Below are positions 17,820 to 27,893 of a stretch of DNA of 31,400 nt, piece by piece (the first letter of the stretch is position 1; each line of letters opens with the position of its first letter). The translations under genes were made by a program, and so were the position numbers. The notes beneath the pieces are model-generated. The model did not search any database and was not told the origin of the DNA. It saw only the letters and a list, made by a program, of their open reading frames with translations. The DNA comes from an uncultured Eubacteriales bacterium (GTDB lineage Bacteria; Bacillota; Clostridia; Oscillospirales; Butyricicoccaceae): assembly GCA_900555855.1 (NCBI GenBank), contig USML01000007.1, forward strand, positions 1-31,400, given 5' to 3'.

Positions 17820-17893
17820 TGGCAGCGAGAGAAGGATTCGAACCCTCACAAACAGAGTCAGAGTCTGTCGTGCTACCCTTACACAATCTCGCT
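17820..17893 (-). tRNA. tRNA-Gln (anticodon CTG)
   Basis: A 74-nt tRNA with encoded CCA. The acceptor stem is AGCGAGA/TCTCGCT with discriminator G. The D arm is GTGT/GCAC, the anticodon stem ACAGA/TCTGT with loop CT-CTG-AC, and the T arm GAGGG/CCTTC with loop TTCGAAT. Anticodon CTG reads CAG (Gln), a frequent codon in this GC-rich genome. It is transcribed alone from a near-consensus promoter and ends at its own terminator. Confidence 0.96.
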
Positions 17894-23194: not shown

Positions 23195-23977
23195 ATGCGT
23201 ACTGGCATCATCACCGGAGCCTCCTCCGGCATGGGAAGAGAGTTCGTCCTGCAGGCGGCGGCCCGGGGCGATCTGGACGAGATCTGGGTCATTGCCCGCC
23301 GGGCGGAGCGGCTGGAGCGGCTGAAAAAGGAGGTCTCCGTGCCGCTGTTTGTCCTGCCCCTGGACCTGACCCGGGCGGAGAGCTTTGAGACCTACCGCAA
23401 GACCCTGGAGGAGCGCCGGCCGCAGGTGACGCTGCTGATCAACGCCAGCGGCTTCGGCAAGTTCGGCCGCTATGACCAGATCCCCCTGCAGGACAGTCTG
23501 GACATGATCGACCTGAACTGCAGGGCGCTGGTGCACATCACCCAGCTGACGCTGCCCTATCTGGAAAAGGGCACTCATGTGATCCAGATCGACAGCCTTT
23601 CCGCCTTCCAGCCGGTGCCCTATCTGGGCGTCTACGGCGCCACGAAGGCCTTTGTGCTGAGCTATTCCCGCAGCCTCAATGCGGAGCTGGCGCCCCGGGG
23701 GATCCACATGATGGCCTTTTGCCCCGGCTGGGTCAAGACGGAGTTTTTTGACCATGCGGAGCAGACCTCCAAGACCGCCGTTACCTATTTCAATCAGCTG
23801 TTCACCGCCCGGGAGGTGGTGGCCTGCGCCCTGCGGGATTCCGCCCGGGGCAGGGATGTGTGCGTCCCCGGCTTCCGGATCAAGCTCCAGGTCCTGCTGA
23901 CCAAGCTGCTGCCCCACCGGCTGGTGATGCGGATCTGGCTGAAGCAGCAGAAGCACGCCGGAAAAACAGAAGCATGA
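23195..23977 (+). CDS. Short-chain dehydrogenase/reductase
   Basis: A 260-residue classical SDR oxidoreductase using NAD(P)(H). The cofactor motif TGASSGMG is at 7-14, a structural NASG at about 83-86, catalytic Ser in IDSLSA at about 132-137 and YxxxK as Tyr147/Lys151. The C-terminal basic segment (LLPHRLVMRIWLKQQKHAG) is longer than in soluble classical SDRs and could touch the membrane. A good site, GAAGGGAGAAGCGT, precedes the ATG. The stop overlaps an ATG of the next frame (ATGA at 23974). Substrate unknown; position behind rex suggests redox-linked expression (inference). Confidence 0.9.
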   Translation: MRTGIITGASSGMGREFVLQAAARGDLDEIWVIARRAERLERLKKEVSVPLFVLPLDLTRAESFETYRKTLEERRPQVTLLINASGFGKFGRYDQIPLQDSLDMIDLNCRALVHITQLTLPYLEKGTHVIQIDSLSAFQPVPYLGVYGATKAFVLSYSRSLNAELAPRGIHMMAFCPGWVKTEFFDHAEQTSKTAVTYFNQLFTAREVVACALRDSARGRDVCVPGFRIKLQVLLTKLLPHRLVMRIWLKQQKHAGKTEA

Positions 23978-23991
23978 CCGGGAGCAGGATC

Positions 23992-24873
23992 ATGGAACGG
24001 GAGCTGGACGCCTGCCAGCGCATTGAGCGCAGCATCATCAAAAAATACCGGAAGGAGCTTTGGAATCCCTTCATTCTTGCCGTCAAGCAATACCGCCTCA
24101 TTCAGGGCGGCGACCGGATCGCCGTCTGCATCTCCGGCGGAAAGGATTCCATGCTGCTGGCAAAGCTCATGCAGCAGCTGCGGGCCTACAGCGAGGTCCC
24201 CTTTGAGCTGCGCTTTCTGGTGATGGATCCTGGCTATAACGCCGAAAATCGGCAGCAGCTCCTGCACAATGCCGAGCTGCTGCGGATCCCCGTCACCGTT
24301 TTTGAGAGCGATGTGTTTCGCGTGGCCAACGGCGCGGAAAAGAACCCCTGCTATCTCTGCGCCCGGATGCGCCGGGGCCATCTCTACAGTCAGGCCCGGG
24401 CGCTGGGCTGCAATAAGATCGCCTTGGGGCACCATTTCAACGATGTGGTGGAGACCACGGTGCTGAGTATGTTTTACGGGGCGCAGCTGCAGGCCATGCC
24501 TCCCAAGCTCCACAGCAAAAATTTTCCCGGCATGACGCTGATCCGGCCGCTTTATTGCATCCATGAGGAGGACATTTTGGCCTGGAAGCGCTACAACGGG
24601 CTGGAATTTCTTCAGTGTGCCTGCCGCTTTACCGAGAAAAATGAGGGCGCCCACGATGGCGGCTCCTCCAAGCGGCAGGAGATCAAGCTGCTGCTGAAGA
24701 AGCTTCGGCAGACCAGCCCAAACATTGAAAAAAGCATCTTCCGCAGCATCCACGCGGTTGCGCTGGATACCTTTCCGGGCTATAAGTCCGGCGGCGTGGA
24801 GCACAGCTTTTTAGAGCGCTTTGATGCGCTGGAGGGGCAAGGCGCCCCGGCAGACGGAGCGGAGGGAGACTGA
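23992..24873 (+). CDS. TtcA-like PP-loop tRNA thiolation enzyme
   Basis: A 293-residue ATP-pyrophosphatase of the TtcA/TtuA group, which thiolates tRNA bases (2-thiocytidine-32 in TtcA) with an iron-sulfur cluster. The PP-loop SGGKDS is at 48-53. CxxC is at 120-123 (PCYLCARMRRG), the typical cluster ligands. A third cysteine lies in QCACRF (Cys209 or Cys211), where TtcA has its single third ligand. ALGHHFNDVVET, at about 144-155, is the conserved second ATP motif. The ATG at 23992 has GGGAG 7 nt upstream. An ATG at 23974 overlapping the SDR stop is the alternative. The C-terminus (from about 225) is longer and more basic than in enterobacterial TtcA. The exact tRNA target is not certain. Confidence 0.85.
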   Translation: MERELDACQRIERSIIKKYRKELWNPFILAVKQYRLIQGGDRIAVCISGGKDSMLLAKLMQQLRAYSEVPFELRFLVMDPGYNAENRQQLLHNAELLRIPVTVFESDVFRVANGAEKNPCYLCARMRRGHLYSQARALGCNKIALGHHFNDVVETTVLSMFYGAQLQAMPPKLHSKNFPGMTLIRPLYCIHEEDILAWKRYNGLEFLQCACRFTEKNEGAHDGGSSKRQEIKLLLKKLRQTSPNIEKSIFRSIHAVALDTFPGYKSGGVEHSFLERFDALEGQGAPADGAEGD

Positions 24874-24881
24874 GCCGCCGC

Positions 24882-24900
24882 AAAATGCACAGCATTTTTT
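24882..24900 (+). terminator. Weak terminator after the TtcA-like gene
   Basis: AAAATGC (24882-24888) and GCATTTT (24892-24898) pair with a 3-nt loop; T residues continue to 24900. The stem is AT-rich but the U-run is good. It separates this transcript from the methionine operon. Confidence 0.5.
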
Positions 24901-24962
24901 GCGAAGCGCCGGTTTTTCTCCGTGCAGCTTTCACAGACTTTTTGTCCGGCTGGTTTTTTCTG

Positions 24963-24991
24963 TTGACAGCGGACCTCGCCGGTGCTATGCT
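24963..24991 (+). promoter_or_regulatory. Promoter of the methionine leader and operon
   Basis: Perfect TTGACA (24963-24968), 17-nt spacer, TATGCT (24986-24991) with TGC just before it (extended -10). Transcription should start near 24998, about 47 nt before the leader ORF. Confidence 0.85.
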
Positions 24992-25044
24992 ACCCACAGA
25001 AAATATGCTCCGCCCCTTGGCGGGCAGAAGGGAGACCTCTCACC

Positions 25045-25185
25045 ATGGCAAACGGCTTTCTGATGGCGCGCGATATGATGTACATGTGCATGTGCATTGG
25101 CATGATGATGCTGATGTGCATGCTTTTCCGTGTCCAAAATTGCTGCCGCCCACTGCCTGCCATGCTGAGACGGGAGGCTTGCTGA
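25045..25185 (+). CDS. Methionine/cysteine-rich leader peptide
   Basis: A 46-residue ORF between the promoter at 24963-24991 and metN. Twelve residues are Met (1, 7, 11, 12, 14, 16, 20, 21, 22, 24, 26, 40) and six are Cys (15, 17, 25, 33, 34, 46), all Cys codons being TGC. Nine of codons 11-26 (25075-25122) are ATG. A GGGAG site lies about 10 nt before the ATG. The stop TGA (25183-25185) sits in the loop of a hairpin (25174-25196), and a strong terminator (25211-25248) follows before metN. This is the layout of ribosome-mediated attenuation as in trp, his or leu leaders: scarce charged tRNA-Met would stall the ribosome on the ATG run and favour read-through. The alternative, a functional Met/Cys peptide such as a metal binder, is less likely given the context. 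No database check was possible. Confidence 0.82.
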   Translation: MANGFLMARDMMYMCMCIGMMMLMCMLFRVQNCCRPLPAMLRREAC

Positions 25186-25196
25186 AAGCAAGCTTC
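25174..25196 (+). promoter_or_regulatory. Hairpin around the leader-peptide stop codon
   Basis: GAGGCTTGC (25174-25182) and GCAAGCTTC (25188-25196) form a 9-bp stem with one G-U pair. The 5-nt loop TGAAA contains the stop codon. A ribosome at the stop would melt it. GCTTC of its 3' arm (25192-25196) can pair with GAAGC (25215-25219) in the terminator 5' arm. GCCT-CC (25155-25161) upstream can pair with GGGAGGC (25172-25178) instead of its 5' arm. These are the pieces of a possible switch, but the competing pairings are short. Confidence 0.6.
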
Positions 25197-25210
25197 AGGT
25201 CTGCAATACT

Positions 25211-25248
25211 GCGGGAAGCCCGGGATGGGGCTTCCCGCTTTTTATTTT
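25211..25248 (+). terminator. Intrinsic terminator (attenuator) in front of metN
   Basis: GCGGGAAGCCC (25211-25221) and GGGCTTCCCGC (25228-25238) form a perfect 11-bp stem with a 6-nt loop, followed by TTTTTATTTT. It lies downstream of the operon promoter and 29 nt before the metN start, so genes beyond it need read-through. Confidence 0.93.
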
Positions 25249-25276
25249 CCGCTTCGAGCGAAATGGAGGGATCTGC

Positions 25277-26323
25277 TTGATCGAACTGAACCATGTATCC
25301 AAGACCTTCGGCTCTGGCCAGAGCCAGGTCCGCGCAGTGGAGGATGTGAGCCTGCGCATCGGCCCGGGAGAGATCTTCGGCGTCATCGGCTTTTCCGGCG
25401 CGGGAAAATCCACGCTGGTGCGCTGCATCAATCTGCTGGAAAAGCCTACGGAGGGCACCGTCACCGTAGATGGGCAGGAGCTGACGGCCCTTGCTCCGGC
25501 GGCCCTGCGCCAGGCCCGGCGGAGGATCGGCATGATCTTCCAGCATTTTAATCTGATGCAGTCCCGCACGGTGTTTGGCAATGTGGCCTATCCTCTGCGG
25601 GGCAGCGGCATGACCCGGGCACAGATCGCGGAAAAGGTCCGGGGGCTGCTGCAGCTGGTGGACATCGCCGATAAGGAAAATGCCTATCCCAGCCAGCTTT
25701 CCGGCGGGCAGAAGCAGCGGGTGGCTATCGCCCGGGCGCTGGCCTGCGACCCGAAGGTGCTGCTGTGCGACGAGGCCACCTCCGCGCTGGATCCCCAGAC
25801 CACCAAGTCCATTCTGGAGCTGCTGCGGCGGCTGAACGAACAGCTGGGCCTGACCATCGTGCTCATCACCCATGAGATGGCGGTGGTCAAGGAGATCTGC
25901 AGCCGGGTGGCCGTCATGGAGCACGGCCGGGTGGTGGAGGAGGGGGATGTGCTGTCTGTCTTTGCCGCGCCCCGGCAGGAGGTCACGCGGAGCTTTATCC
26001 GCACCACCTCCAATCTGCGCAAGATCGATGAGCTGGTGGCGGCAGACGAGCCCATCACCCACCTGCGTCCCGGAGAGCTCATCGTCCGGCTGTCCTATCT
26101 CAGCAGCAACGCAGCCCAGCCGGTGATCTCGGCCATTTCCCGGCTTTACAGCGTGGATATCAGCATTATTTTCGCCAACATCGAGATCATCCAGAATGTG
26201 CCCATCGGCGGCACGGTGGCCATCGTCAGCGGCCGGCGGCCGGATATCACCCGGGCCATGGAATATCTCATCGAACACAATGTAGGAGTGGAGGTCATCA
26301 AGGATGCAAGAGCTGCTGAATAA
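25277..26323 (+). CDS. metN: Methionine ABC transporter ATP-binding protein MetN
   Basis: A 348-residue ATPase of the methionine uptake (MUT) family. Walker A GFSGAGKS is at 38-45, the signature LSGGQKQR at 141-148, Walker B VLLCDE at 161-166 and the switch His199 in LITHEM. A C-terminal regulatory NIL/ACT-like domain occupies about 265-345; in Escherichia coli it binds methionine and shuts the transporter. The start is TTG at 25277, preceded by GGAGG with a 7-nt spacer; the protein then begins MIELNHVSKTF as in homologues. It lies behind the attenuator, and metI overlaps its 3' end by 20 nt. Confidence 0.96.
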   Translation: MIELNHVSKTFGSGQSQVRAVEDVSLRIGPGEIFGVIGFSGAGKSTLVRCINLLEKPTEGTVTVDGQELTALAPAALRQARRRIGMIFQHFNLMQSRTVFGNVAYPLRGSGMTRAQIAEKVRGLLQLVDIADKENAYPSQLSGGQKQRVAIARALACDPKVLLCDEATSALDPQTTKSILELLRRLNEQLGLTIVLITHEMAVVKEICSRVAVMEHGRVVEEGDVLSVFAAPRQEVTRSFIRTTSNLRKIDELVAADEPITHLRPGELIVRLSYLSSNAAQPVISAISRLYSVDISIIFANIEIIQNVPIGGTVAIVSGRRPDITRAMEYLIEHNVGVEVIKDARAAE

Positions 26324-26984
26324 ATGGATCCCCAATGTGATGGGCCGGCTGCCGGATTTCTGGCAGGCCATCGGCGACACGCTGCTGATGGTGGTCTGGT
26401 CCGGCGCCATTTCCTTTGTGCTGGGGCTGGCGCTGGGCGTGGTGGTGACGGTGACCCGGCCCGGCGGCATTCTGGAAAACCGGGTCGTCTACCAGCTTCT
26501 GGACAAGCTGATCAATTTCATCCGCTCCATCCCCTTCATCATTCTGCTGACGGCGGTGATGCCCCTTTCCCGGCTGATCATGGGAACGGCCATCTATGTC
26601 CGGGGCGCCATCGTGCCGCTGGTCTTTGGGACGGTGCCCTTCTTTACCCGGCAGGTGGAGAGCGCGCTGGCCCAGGTGGACAAGGGGCTGGTGGAGGCGG
26701 CGCTGGCCATGGGCTCCTCACCGCTGGAGATCGTCTTTCGCGTCTATCTCCGGGAGAGCATTGCAGCCATCGCCCGGGGCACCACCATCACCCTGATCAG
26801 CCTTATCGGCCTGACGGCCATGGCCGGCGTGGTGGGCGCGGGCGGCCTGGGCGATTTTGCCATCCGCTACGGCCACGACCGGAACATGACGGATGTGACC
26901 TATGTGACCGTTCTGGTGGTCTTCCTGCTGGTGAGCCTGATCCAGTTCATCGGCGGACGCATCGTAAAGAAAAACACCCATTGA
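26304..26984 (+). CDS. metI: Methionine ABC transporter permease MetI
   Basis: A 226-residue inner-membrane permease with about five membrane helices: GDTLLMVVWSGAISFVLGLALGV, then FIRSIPFIILLTAVMPL with the conserved RSIPF motif, GAIVPLVFGTVPFF, ITLISLIGLTAMAGVVGAGGLG and VTVLVVFLLVSLIQFIGG. The EAA loop facing MetN is VEAALAMGSSPLEIVFRVYLRES. The ATG lies inside the end of metN with GGAGG about 10 nt upstream. metQ follows after 57 nt. Length and order are typical for metNIQ. Confidence 0.95.
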   Translation: MQELLNKWIPNVMGRLPDFWQAIGDTLLMVVWSGAISFVLGLALGVVVTVTRPGGILENRVVYQLLDKLINFIRSIPFIILLTAVMPLSRLIMGTAIYVRGAIVPLVFGTVPFFTRQVESALAQVDKGLVEAALAMGSSPLEIVFRVYLRESIAAIARGTTITLISLIGLTAMAGVVGAGGLGDFAIRYGHDRNMTDVTYVTVLVVFLLVSLIQFIGGRIVKKNTH

Positions 26985-27041: not shown

Positions 27042-27893
27042 ATGAACCTGAAGAAATCTCTGGCCCTGTGCCTGGCCGCTGCCGCCATTTTGACCCTGCT
27101 GTGCGCCTGCGGCAGCCCCGCGAGCTCCAAAACCGAGACCACTACCGTGAAGATCGGCGTCACCGGAAGCTTTTATGAGGACCTGTGGCAGCCTGCCAAG
27201 GAGCTTTTGAAAAAGGACGGCATTGATTTGCAGATCGTGCAGTTTTCCGATTTTGTCACCCCAAACAACGCGCTGGCCAACGGAGAGATCGACCTGAATG
27301 CCTTCCAGCACCGGGTCTATCTGGAATCTGAGGTGAAAAACTACGGCTACGCCATCCAGAACATCGGCAATACCCTGATCATCCCGCTGAACATCTATTC
27401 CCAGAAGGTCTCCTCCGTCAGCGAGCTGAAGGACGGCGATACCGTGGCCATCCCCGACGACGAGAGCAACGGCGGCCGGGCGCTGAAGGTGCTGGAATCC
27501 GCGGGCCTTATCACCCTGAGCCCCGATGCCGGCTTCAACCCCTCCGTCAGCGATATCACCAGCTACAAGGTCAAGCTTCAGATCGAGGAGCTGAAGGCCA
27601 ATGTGATCCCCTCCGTGCTGCCCGATGTGACCGCCGCCGTGGTCAACGGCAACTTTGCGCTGGATTTCGGCCTGAAGCAGGAGGAGGCCATCTTCCAGGA
27701 TGAAAATCTGGATCAGAAGGAATATTGGTGCCTGATCGCCGCCCGCACCGCCGATTTGGAGGATGCGGACAAAAAGGCCCTGTATCAGTCCATCGTGGAC
27801 GCTTATCATTCCGCCGAAACGCAGACTGTCTTCGACACCACCTACAAGGGCTATTTCGTCTCCGTGGGCTGGGACGAGGATCTGCTGGGCTGA
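27042..27893 (+). CDS. metQ: Methionine-binding lipoprotein MetQ (NlpA family)
   Basis: A 283-residue substrate-binding lipoprotein. It has a lipoprotein signal peptide with the lipobox LCAC (lipidated Cys23), a short Ser/Thr linker and the NlpA-type mature domain: KIGVTGSFYEDLWQPAKE, then DFVTPNNALANGEIDLNAFQH, IGNTLIIPLNIYSQKV and SNGGRALKVLESAGLI. An AGGAGG with 8-nt spacing precedes the ATG. MetQ proteins bind L- and often D-methionine and derivatives with differing affinity. Ligand preference cannot be read here, but the downstream oxidoreductase and aminotransferase make D-methionine or hydroxy-analogue uptake worth considering. Confidence 0.95.
   Translation: MNLKKSLALCLAAAAILTLLCACGSPASSKTETTTVKIGVTGSFYEDLWQPAKELLKKDGIDLQIVQFSDFVTPNNALANGEIDLNAFQHRVYLESEVKNYGYAIQNIGNTLIIPLNIYSQKVSSVSELKDGDTVAIPDDESNGGRALKVLESAGLITLSPDAGFNPSVSDITSYKVKLQIEELKANVIPSVLPDVTAAVVNGNFALDFGLKQEEAIFQDENLDQKEYWCLIAARTADLEDADKKALYQSIVDAYHSAETQTVFDTTYKGYFVSVGWDEDLLG

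Follow-up and report, generated by a model that had tools for sequence, protein, structure and literature searches.

Methionine-codon leader peptides as putative transcription attenuators of metNIQ and other methionine genes in Clostridia

The leader region upstream of metNIQ

The DNA stretch analyzed here (the window) comprises 31,400 nucleotides (nt) of contig USML01000007.1 from an uncultured Eubacteriales bacterium of the family Butyricicoccaceae (assembly GCA_900555855.1). It carries a methionine transporter operon, metNIQ, preceded by a leader region that contains a short open reading frame (ORF) rich in methionine codons and an intrinsic terminator. Judged by its structure and codon content, this element is very probably a ribosome-mediated transcription attenuator of metNIQ, in which translating ribosomes would sense charged tRNA-Met and probably charged tRNA-Cys as well. 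The features of the locus are listed below.

24963..24991, plus strand: sigma-70-type promoter, TTGACA-17-TATGCT, with TG preceding the -10 element (1 found versus 0.1 expected from shuffles)
25028..25034, plus strand: Shine-Dalgarno-like AAGGGAG, 10 nt 5' of the leader ATG (from the sequence)
25045..25185, plus strand: leader peptide ORF of 46 codons with 12 ATG and 6 TGC; translation MANGFLMARDMMYMCMCIGMMMLMCMLFRVQNCCRPLPAMLRREAC*
25075..25122, plus strand: Met/Cys codon cluster, codons 11-26, with 9 ATG and 3 TGC; proposed stall zone
25088..25123, plus strand: 16-pair hairpin that the ATG/TGC repeats themselves would make if untranslated (by folding)
25149..25160, plus strand: predicted 5' side of an antiterminator (CCC, CU, and CCUGC), with its partner within 25211-25224 when a ribosome is stalled upstream; weak
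25174..25196, plus strand: 9-pair hairpin (one G-U), tip of the predicted antiterminator stem
25211..25238, plus strand: intrinsic terminator stem, 11 perfect pairs, -24.8 kcal/mol
25239..25248, plus strand: terminator T-tract TTTTTATTTT, directly 3' of the stem
25277..26323, plus strand: metN, methionine ABC transporter ATPase with a TTG start (TIGR02314, 417.2 bits, below the equivalog cut-off of 499.7)
26304..26984, plus strand: metI, permease (NF008049, 192.9 bits, cut-off 212)
27042..27893, plus strand: metQ, substrate-binding lipoprotein (NF008285, 176.1 bits, cut-off 374)

The three transporter genes were named after their best NCBIfam matches, all of which scored under the curated cut-offs. 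Transcription would start near 24998-25000. Between the promoter and the first gene there is thus a putatively translatable ORF with a ribosome-binding site, its codon cluster corresponds to the amino acid handled by the operon (9 ATG in 16 codons before metNIQ), and an intrinsic terminator lies between the ORF and metN. An initial annotation of the window, made from the sequence, had described the consensus promoter, the 46-codon ORF with 12 ATG and 6 TGC codons and nine ATG within codons 11-26, a stop codon in the loop of a 9-bp hairpin, and an 11-bp perfect terminator with a U-tract. All of these were recovered, the stop codon (25183-25185) being located in the loop of hairpin 25174-25196. 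The spacing of 29 nt given there between the terminator and metN holds approximately when counted from the T-tract (28 nt) and does not hold from the stem (38 nt). Five near-identical leaders of 46 amino acids were found in the protein database, with 89-96% identity to the window peptide.

The control of methionine genes in Firmicutes is usually described by S-adenosylmethionine (SAM) riboswitches, T-boxes, and repressors, and T-box and SAM riboswitches are usual in Clostridia. The initial annotation had reported neither an S-box nor a T-box, and Rfam agreed with it, giving no match at the gathering score at the locus, T-box and SAM included. A lax scan of positions 24800-25400 returned six matches, every one under the gathering score. 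The T-box family (RF00230) had no match before the window metN in the Rfam scans, and the only SAM family matched there was SAM-Chlorobi (14.5 bits versus a gathering score of 35, E 4.8). In this respect the window differs from those relatives in which T-box or SAM control lies directly before metN.

Met-rich leaders in Clostridial genomes

The regions upstream of metN were surveyed in 80 loci from species genomes (the 80 top-ranking of 576 or more relatives) and in further loci from the family and the order to which an Agathobaculum relative belongs, plus more families (at most 30 loci per search, partly samples from larger groups). Up to 450 nt before metN were taken, and 191 distinct regions were obtained after merging identical ones. 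A Met score, defined as the maximum count of ATG codons, start codons excluded, within 16 codons of any short ORF, was calculated with a threshold of 5; the window leader has a score of 9. Met-rich short ORFs (score of at least 5) were present in 40 of the 191 regions, 34 Clostridial and 6 of a Parasutterella type. None of 3820 dinucleotide-shuffled regions reached this score, and the reverse complements did so in 3 of 191 cases, all with exactly 5. Among other tiles of the same loci, 5 of 1743 reached the threshold, and these proved to be further Met-rich ORFs, located upstream of metQ in metQ-first operons (L158, L188, L193, and L194) or 0.66 kb before a second metN copy (L090). A chance origin of the Met-rich ORFs was ruled out by the shuffles and tiles. 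Together with L109, another metQ-first case, these five make up six Met-rich ORFs located farther upstream, five in metQ-first operons and the sixth in L090. The metQ-first cases indicate that a Met-rich ORF tends to head the transporter operon whichever gene leads.

The 40 Clostridial leaders were reduced to 35 by removing five near-duplicates. Carriers of a leader include a cultured species, Lachnoclostridium phytofermentans (L006). In the clusters of these 35 leaders, 254 ATG are in frame versus 5 and 2 in the other frames. A Shine-Dalgarno-like site of at least 4 nt precedes an in-frame start in all 35 leaders (random expectation 0.52), the window entering this count with the 4-nt match AAGG, and a site of at least 5 nt was found in 24 of 35 (random expectation 0.19). 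The leaders mostly start 6-10 codons before the cluster, contain up to 11 Met codons per 16, and have 33-54 nt from the last Met to the stop codon in 31 of 35 cases. Terminators were detected in 38 of the 40 Clostridial leaders, those without being L140 and L158. By eye, the peptides have little in common beyond Met and Cys. L005, L173, and L174 are related to one another; their terminator stems are altered on both sides yet paired, and the Met cluster is constant while the tail varies. GGAAGC or a close variant was also seen in the terminator 5' arm of the window, L001, L005, L083, L086, L101, L173, L174, and L193, loci with otherwise different leaders.

Of 234 cluster residues other than Met, 68 are Cys, compared with 26 of 478 residues in the tails. 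As a refinement of the attenuator, the Met and Cys codons may form a joint two-amino-acid sulfur sensor, a proposal that we favor with some reserve, and tRNA-Cys is probably sensed besides tRNA-Met. In thrL, Thr and Ile codons act as such a two-amino-acid sensor. Consistent with this proposal are the enrichment of Cys in the clusters, the use of both TGC (50) and TGT (18) there, and the occurrence of at least one Cys in 31 of 35 clusters; against it, four clusters (L174, L005, L101, and L140) have none, and the Cys codons could have another purpose. The 34% Cys of a further leader set is biased, because the search pattern itself contains TGY.

That further set came from a gene-blind DNA pattern (ATGATG-N0-15-ATGTGYATG), which matched 76 of the 394 genomes of the order searched, versus 20, by our count, for the reversed pattern. 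Fifty pattern loci were examined, 30 of them taken automatically and 20 chosen by eye for dense in-frame ATG, their genes being not known at that point. An ORF with a score of at least 6 was found in 16 of the 50, and 14 of the 16 precede methionine genes (metN 5, metQ 5, metY 3, and metG 1); the metN hits at L295, L297, and L302 are loci already present in the first set. The remaining two are followed by an amidohydrolase gene (L294) and by a HAD-type hydrolase-like gene (L288, not leader-like). Six ORFs have a score of exactly 5 (L286, L287, L299, L316, L326, and L327); a met gene follows only L299, which repeats L095, and the pattern by itself therefore lacks specificity. A family search for metY covered 30 loci, 14 of which exceeded the family cut-off; a Met-rich leader before the gene was found in just one, L239, which is slightly under the cut-off.

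In L296 (reverse strand), a Met-rich leader and a terminator precede metG, encoding methionyl-tRNA synthetase (MetRS). Control of metG there may be partial, since a promoter-like stretch was noticed by eye between the terminator and the gene; the same genome (G066) has a leader before metN as well (L089). In L294 (~1450-1654), a Met/Cys-rich leader with a terminator stands before the amidohydrolase gene, whose product perhaps releases methionine from a conjugate, and the genome concerned, G061, also has L084 before metN.

A small functional Met/Cys-rich protein, for example a metal-binding one, co-transcribed with the met genes would be another explanation of such ORFs, and peptides rich in Met and Cys are able to bind metals such as copper. 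It is scarcely plausible given that methionine genes lie downstream in 14 of the 16 gene-blind hits, that the peptides share so little beyond Met and Cys, and that the window peptide had no Pfam match.

In the Rfam scan of 80 loci, a T-box or SAM riboswitch was found upstream of metN in 8 of 64 loci without a Met leader and in 0 of 16 with one. A T-box lies directly before metN in L002, L009, L014, L146, L191, and L196, and a SAM riboswitch in L011 and L016. SAM riboswitch matches were present in 29 of 38 leader-bearing genomes (27 over the cut-off), mostly one per genome, and the eight that were fetched from such genomes all adjoin a gene that a sequence motif, read by eye, identifies as encoding MetK. 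When leader, T-box, SAM, and other were treated as states on a MetN tree with 100 rows, a minimum of 26 changes was counted; many 'other' rows may contain weak T-boxes, and the number 26 may be off by about one owing to L184, mislabelled as a T-box locus (its T-box is downstream of metN). Sensors are thus either often exchanged, as the state changes suggest for this one operon, or often unrecognized.

The nearest MetN relatives of the window, L001, L140, and L082, all have Met leaders, and the next nearest, L141 and L142, have none. The expectation of the initial annotation that the ORF and terminator would be kept while the rest varies was borne out in L001 and L082; L140 has the ORF and a strong hairpin with no U-tract.

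The six Parasutterella-type loci (L017, L117, L119, L120, L121, and L123) were excluded from the Clostridial statistics for their different layout. In these, a short ORF about 200 nt before metN ends with the conserved MRMCMMTMVL and directly precedes a conserved hairpin set, the second stem of which differs on both sides in L120 and is still paired.

The predicted switch and alternative explanations

From this arrangement we infer the sensing of tRNA charging, the direction of control, and its kinetics. A ribosome translating the leader ORF would follow RNA polymerase closely. With ample Met-tRNA (and Cys-tRNA), it would cross the Met/Cys cluster, reach the stop codon, and cover the RNA between the two, whereupon terminator 25211-25238 would form and the operon would be off. 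With scarce charged Met-tRNA or Cys-tRNA, the ribosome would stall in the cluster and leave the RNA just 3' of it free; this RNA could pair with the terminator 5' arm while the 3' arm is yet to be synthesized, and RNA polymerase would continue into metNIQ.

The switch was modeled as pairing of the RNA 3' of a ribosome stalled at the last Met of the cluster with the terminator 5' arm at a stage when the 3' arm is still untranscribed; the leading edge of the ribosome was assumed to lie at A-site +12. The equilibrium probability of the complete terminator was tried as a read-out and rejected as useless, since it amounted to ~0.99 or more wherever the ribosome was placed; for this reason, 5'-arm pairing served as the read-out. 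A total of 33 non-redundant leaders were analyzed, L140 and L158 being left out as loci with no terminator detected. The antiterminator pairing was stronger than in shuffles, with a Stouffer z of -10.8 for its energy, and the loss of this pairing with the ribosome at the stop codon had a Stouffer z of -12.8. In 32 of 33 leaders (the exception is L082), the partner was within the zone hidden by a stop-codon ribosome, which averages 0.69 of the spacer. Averaged over 38 leaders (not thinned), 5'-arm occupancy was 0.77 for a stalled ribosome and 0.23 for one at the stop codon; shuffled spacers gave 0.59. The no-ribosome state has no clear default, the arm occupancy ranging from 0.08 to 1.0 (mean 0.53, 33 leaders; window 0.12). 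By eye, the codons after the cluster repeat the terminator 3' arm in L084, L087, and L089. The switches predicted for L084 and L149 are strong. In the further set of 14 leaders, 13 with a terminator (not L311), the corresponding z values were -6.3 and -7.6, and the partner was hidden in 9 of 13. At the class level, the ORF, codon bias, ribosome-binding site, terminator, and hideable complementarity are supported by this comparison of predicted elements.

The initial annotation was upheld in part. Its central idea, a Met-codon leader and attenuator responding to tRNA-Met and perhaps tRNA-Cys, is well supported across the class, because varied Met/Cys leaders with terminators precede metN, metQ, metY, and metG, because T-box and SAM elements are absent from the 16 Rfam-scanned leader loci, and because the antiterminator geometry recurs. 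The specific competing pairing it proposed, 25155-25161 with 25172-25178, freeing 25192-25196, does not appear in the minimum-energy structures shown; folding with a stalled ribosome leaves hairpin 25174-25196 intact instead. When translation halts at the final Met of the cluster, parts of 25149-25160 are predicted to pair with parts of 25211-25224 in a long imperfect stem. This pairing is lost once the A-site reaches ~25147, and weaker local pairing returns later. Such ribosome-dependent folding of the window would fit the model in part.

Several results weigh against attenuation as described above. The weakest point is the antiterminator predicted in the window itself, which is no better than shuffles (z -0.37), with a terminator-arm occupancy of 0.60 whether the ribosome stalls or reaches the stop codon. 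The close relative L082 goes the opposite way in the same pairing test, and z is above -0.5 in 8 of the 32 other leaders (L096, L077, L195, L083, L086, L182, L001, and L082). The class is therefore claimed with confidence, and the exact antiterminator pairing in the window is offered as a guess, on the grounds of its z and its occupancy at the stop codon. Given the near-complete formation of the full terminator at equilibrium, the switch must be kinetic. The statistics treat the leaders as independent, with only five near-duplicates removed, and the further set is unthinned, contains near-repeats, and includes a spurious terminator at L314. Within 450 nt, 151 of the 191 metN regions have no Met-rich ORF, and the longer flanks of 20 leader-less loci (12 with a same-strand metQ) yielded no new clear leader: L210 shows one at the same site as L090, and L197 gave a weak candidate with a score of 5. 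The initial annotation had named loci that keep the terminator and lack the Met-rich ORF as contrary evidence, and these do occur (L146, L180, and L190). L146 has an Rfam T-box, L180 a T-box motif, and L190 neither identified; we read these sequences as a putative exchange of the sensor.

The same observations bear on the view, in our estimation rather unlikely, that the class attenuates while the switch of the window is degenerate or acts via translation coupling, Rho, or another alternative structure. The z of the window antiterminator, the opposite behavior of L082, and the missing U-tract of the L140 terminator speak for it. However, the promoter, Shine-Dalgarno site, ORF, hairpin, and perfect terminator of the window are all intact, and the five protein variants retain the ORF length and the Met codons, except for Met16, which is replaced by Val in P0002.

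An RNA- or protein-binding terminator/antiterminator or a new riboswitch, in which the ORF is incidental and the ATG repeats matter as hairpin 25088-25123, is very improbable. The window leader does fold more stably than 200 of 200 shuffles (z -5.7), and its repeats form that hairpin, but the ATG excess lies in one frame across the 35 leaders, Shine-Dalgarno sites are present, and outside the cluster the sequences differ widely by eye, although no search for shared RNA structure was made.

Related systems and a second leader peptide

The ribosome-mediated attenuators of trp, his, leu, and thr operons share with the present class a run of regulatory codons, a stop codon near the switch, an intrinsic terminator before the first gene, and an antiterminator partner, predicted in the present class, that a stop-codon ribosome would cover. 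The present class differs from them in that Met would be sensed, Cys codons are interspersed, and the leaders occur in Clostridia. A recurrent Met/Cys-codon attenuator in Clostridia would add translation as a direct sensor of Met-tRNA and would provide annotators with a rule to locate the regulon. It also raises a puzzle: MetRS charges both the initiator and the elongator tRNA, and one may ask how the leader is initiated under methionine shortage.

The closest precedent seen is the predicted metL leader peptide of Streptomyces lividans TK24, a proposed product of 29 amino acids (MSTTSDRTPATEATTTPGARCMCRRMCAF) before metNIQ, as described in passages of PMC8079986. Like the Clostridial leaders, metL precedes metNIQ and mixes Met and Cys codons near its stop, which also favors a joint sensor. 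Unlike them, it has two internal Met and three Cys codons and a leaderless transcript, whereas the Clostridial leaders have Shine-Dalgarno sites, up to 11 Met per 16 codons, and strong terminators; a typical Rho-independent terminator is absent according to its authors, and these passages give no comparative or pairing evidence (PMC8079986). BLASTP of the window peptide against metL gave no local alignment at E up to 100, a comparison of low power at such length. Cysteine leader peptides without terminators have been described before sulfur amino acid genes of Actinobacteria, for whose methionine operons the same account, as far as covered here, notes no conserved RNA structures upstream (PMC1262725). 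In Rhodobacterales, uORFC-8-2 is a Cys-codon short ORF before cysS (PMC8632094). Both resemble the present leaders as short Cys-codon ORFs before sulfur genes and differ in using Cys only, going by the portions of these papers considered. His leader peptides have been reported in bacilli (PMC2965389, in part). No Met-codon leader in Clostridia was named in the titles or abstract openings among the open PMC matches listed.

A second peptide, unlike the Met/Cys leaders, was first found in nine loci as a short ORF ending in or after LRxNFRxGRM before metY, metQ, or metN. Its consensus in Clostridia is L(L/V)RxNFRxGRM, and the loci are L107, L168, L090, L189, L102, L228, L230, L233, L239, and L255-L279 (not L262, L264, and L278). 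The NFRxGRM DNA pattern occurred in 25 of 391 Clostridia genomes versus 6, by our count, for the reversed control. In 19 of the 25 it lies directly before a gene for a Cys/Met-metabolism pyridoxal phosphate enzyme (metY-type) and in 2 before an NlpA/MetQ lipoprotein gene; of the rest, one corresponds to the locus of the second metN copy in G001 and 3 seem unrelated. Column 1, an Arg position not covered by the pattern, is Arg in each of 30 distinct copies and is encoded by six different codons; synonymous variation was seen at the Arg and Asn/Phe codons. In 9 of 9 loci retrieved by peptide motif, a search that left the codon unconstrained, the last Arg is CGA, and CGA ATG is invariant. By eye, the 5' arm of a downstream terminator in L107, L168, and L233 is matched by bases a short distance 3' of the ATG, so that a ribosome stalled at GRM would favor termination. 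Ligand-induced ribosome arrest operates in plant cystathionine gamma-synthase, and the NFRxGRM peptide is a candidate ligand-induced arrest peptide and its proposed bacterial counterpart. Four spellings of the NFRxGRM motif were looked for in the open PMC literature, and none was found. Tentatively, and with some doubt on our part, Clostridia may possess a translation-based sulfur regulon composed of Met/Cys attenuators (metN, metQ, metY, and metG) and an NFRxGRM peptide (metY and metQ) arrested by methionine or one of its derivatives, for example SAM, with the SAM riboswitch kept for metK.

The two kinds of leader occur in tandem in L239 (1165-1500), where a Met/Cys-rich ORF and a terminator are followed by an NFRFGRM ORF before metY, and in L090 (~400-850), where an NFRCGRM ORF and a terminator come before a Met/Cys-rich ORF. 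Very short ORFs between the terminator and metN in L084, L087, and L089 end with Arg-Met-stop, written CGA ATG TGA, and these ends resemble that of the NFRxGRM peptides. Elsewhere in the window, a tRNA-Gln gene (CTG anticodon) is located on the minus strand at 17820-17893, and a TtcA-like tRNA thiolation gene (23875-24870) ends about 90 bp before the leader promoter.

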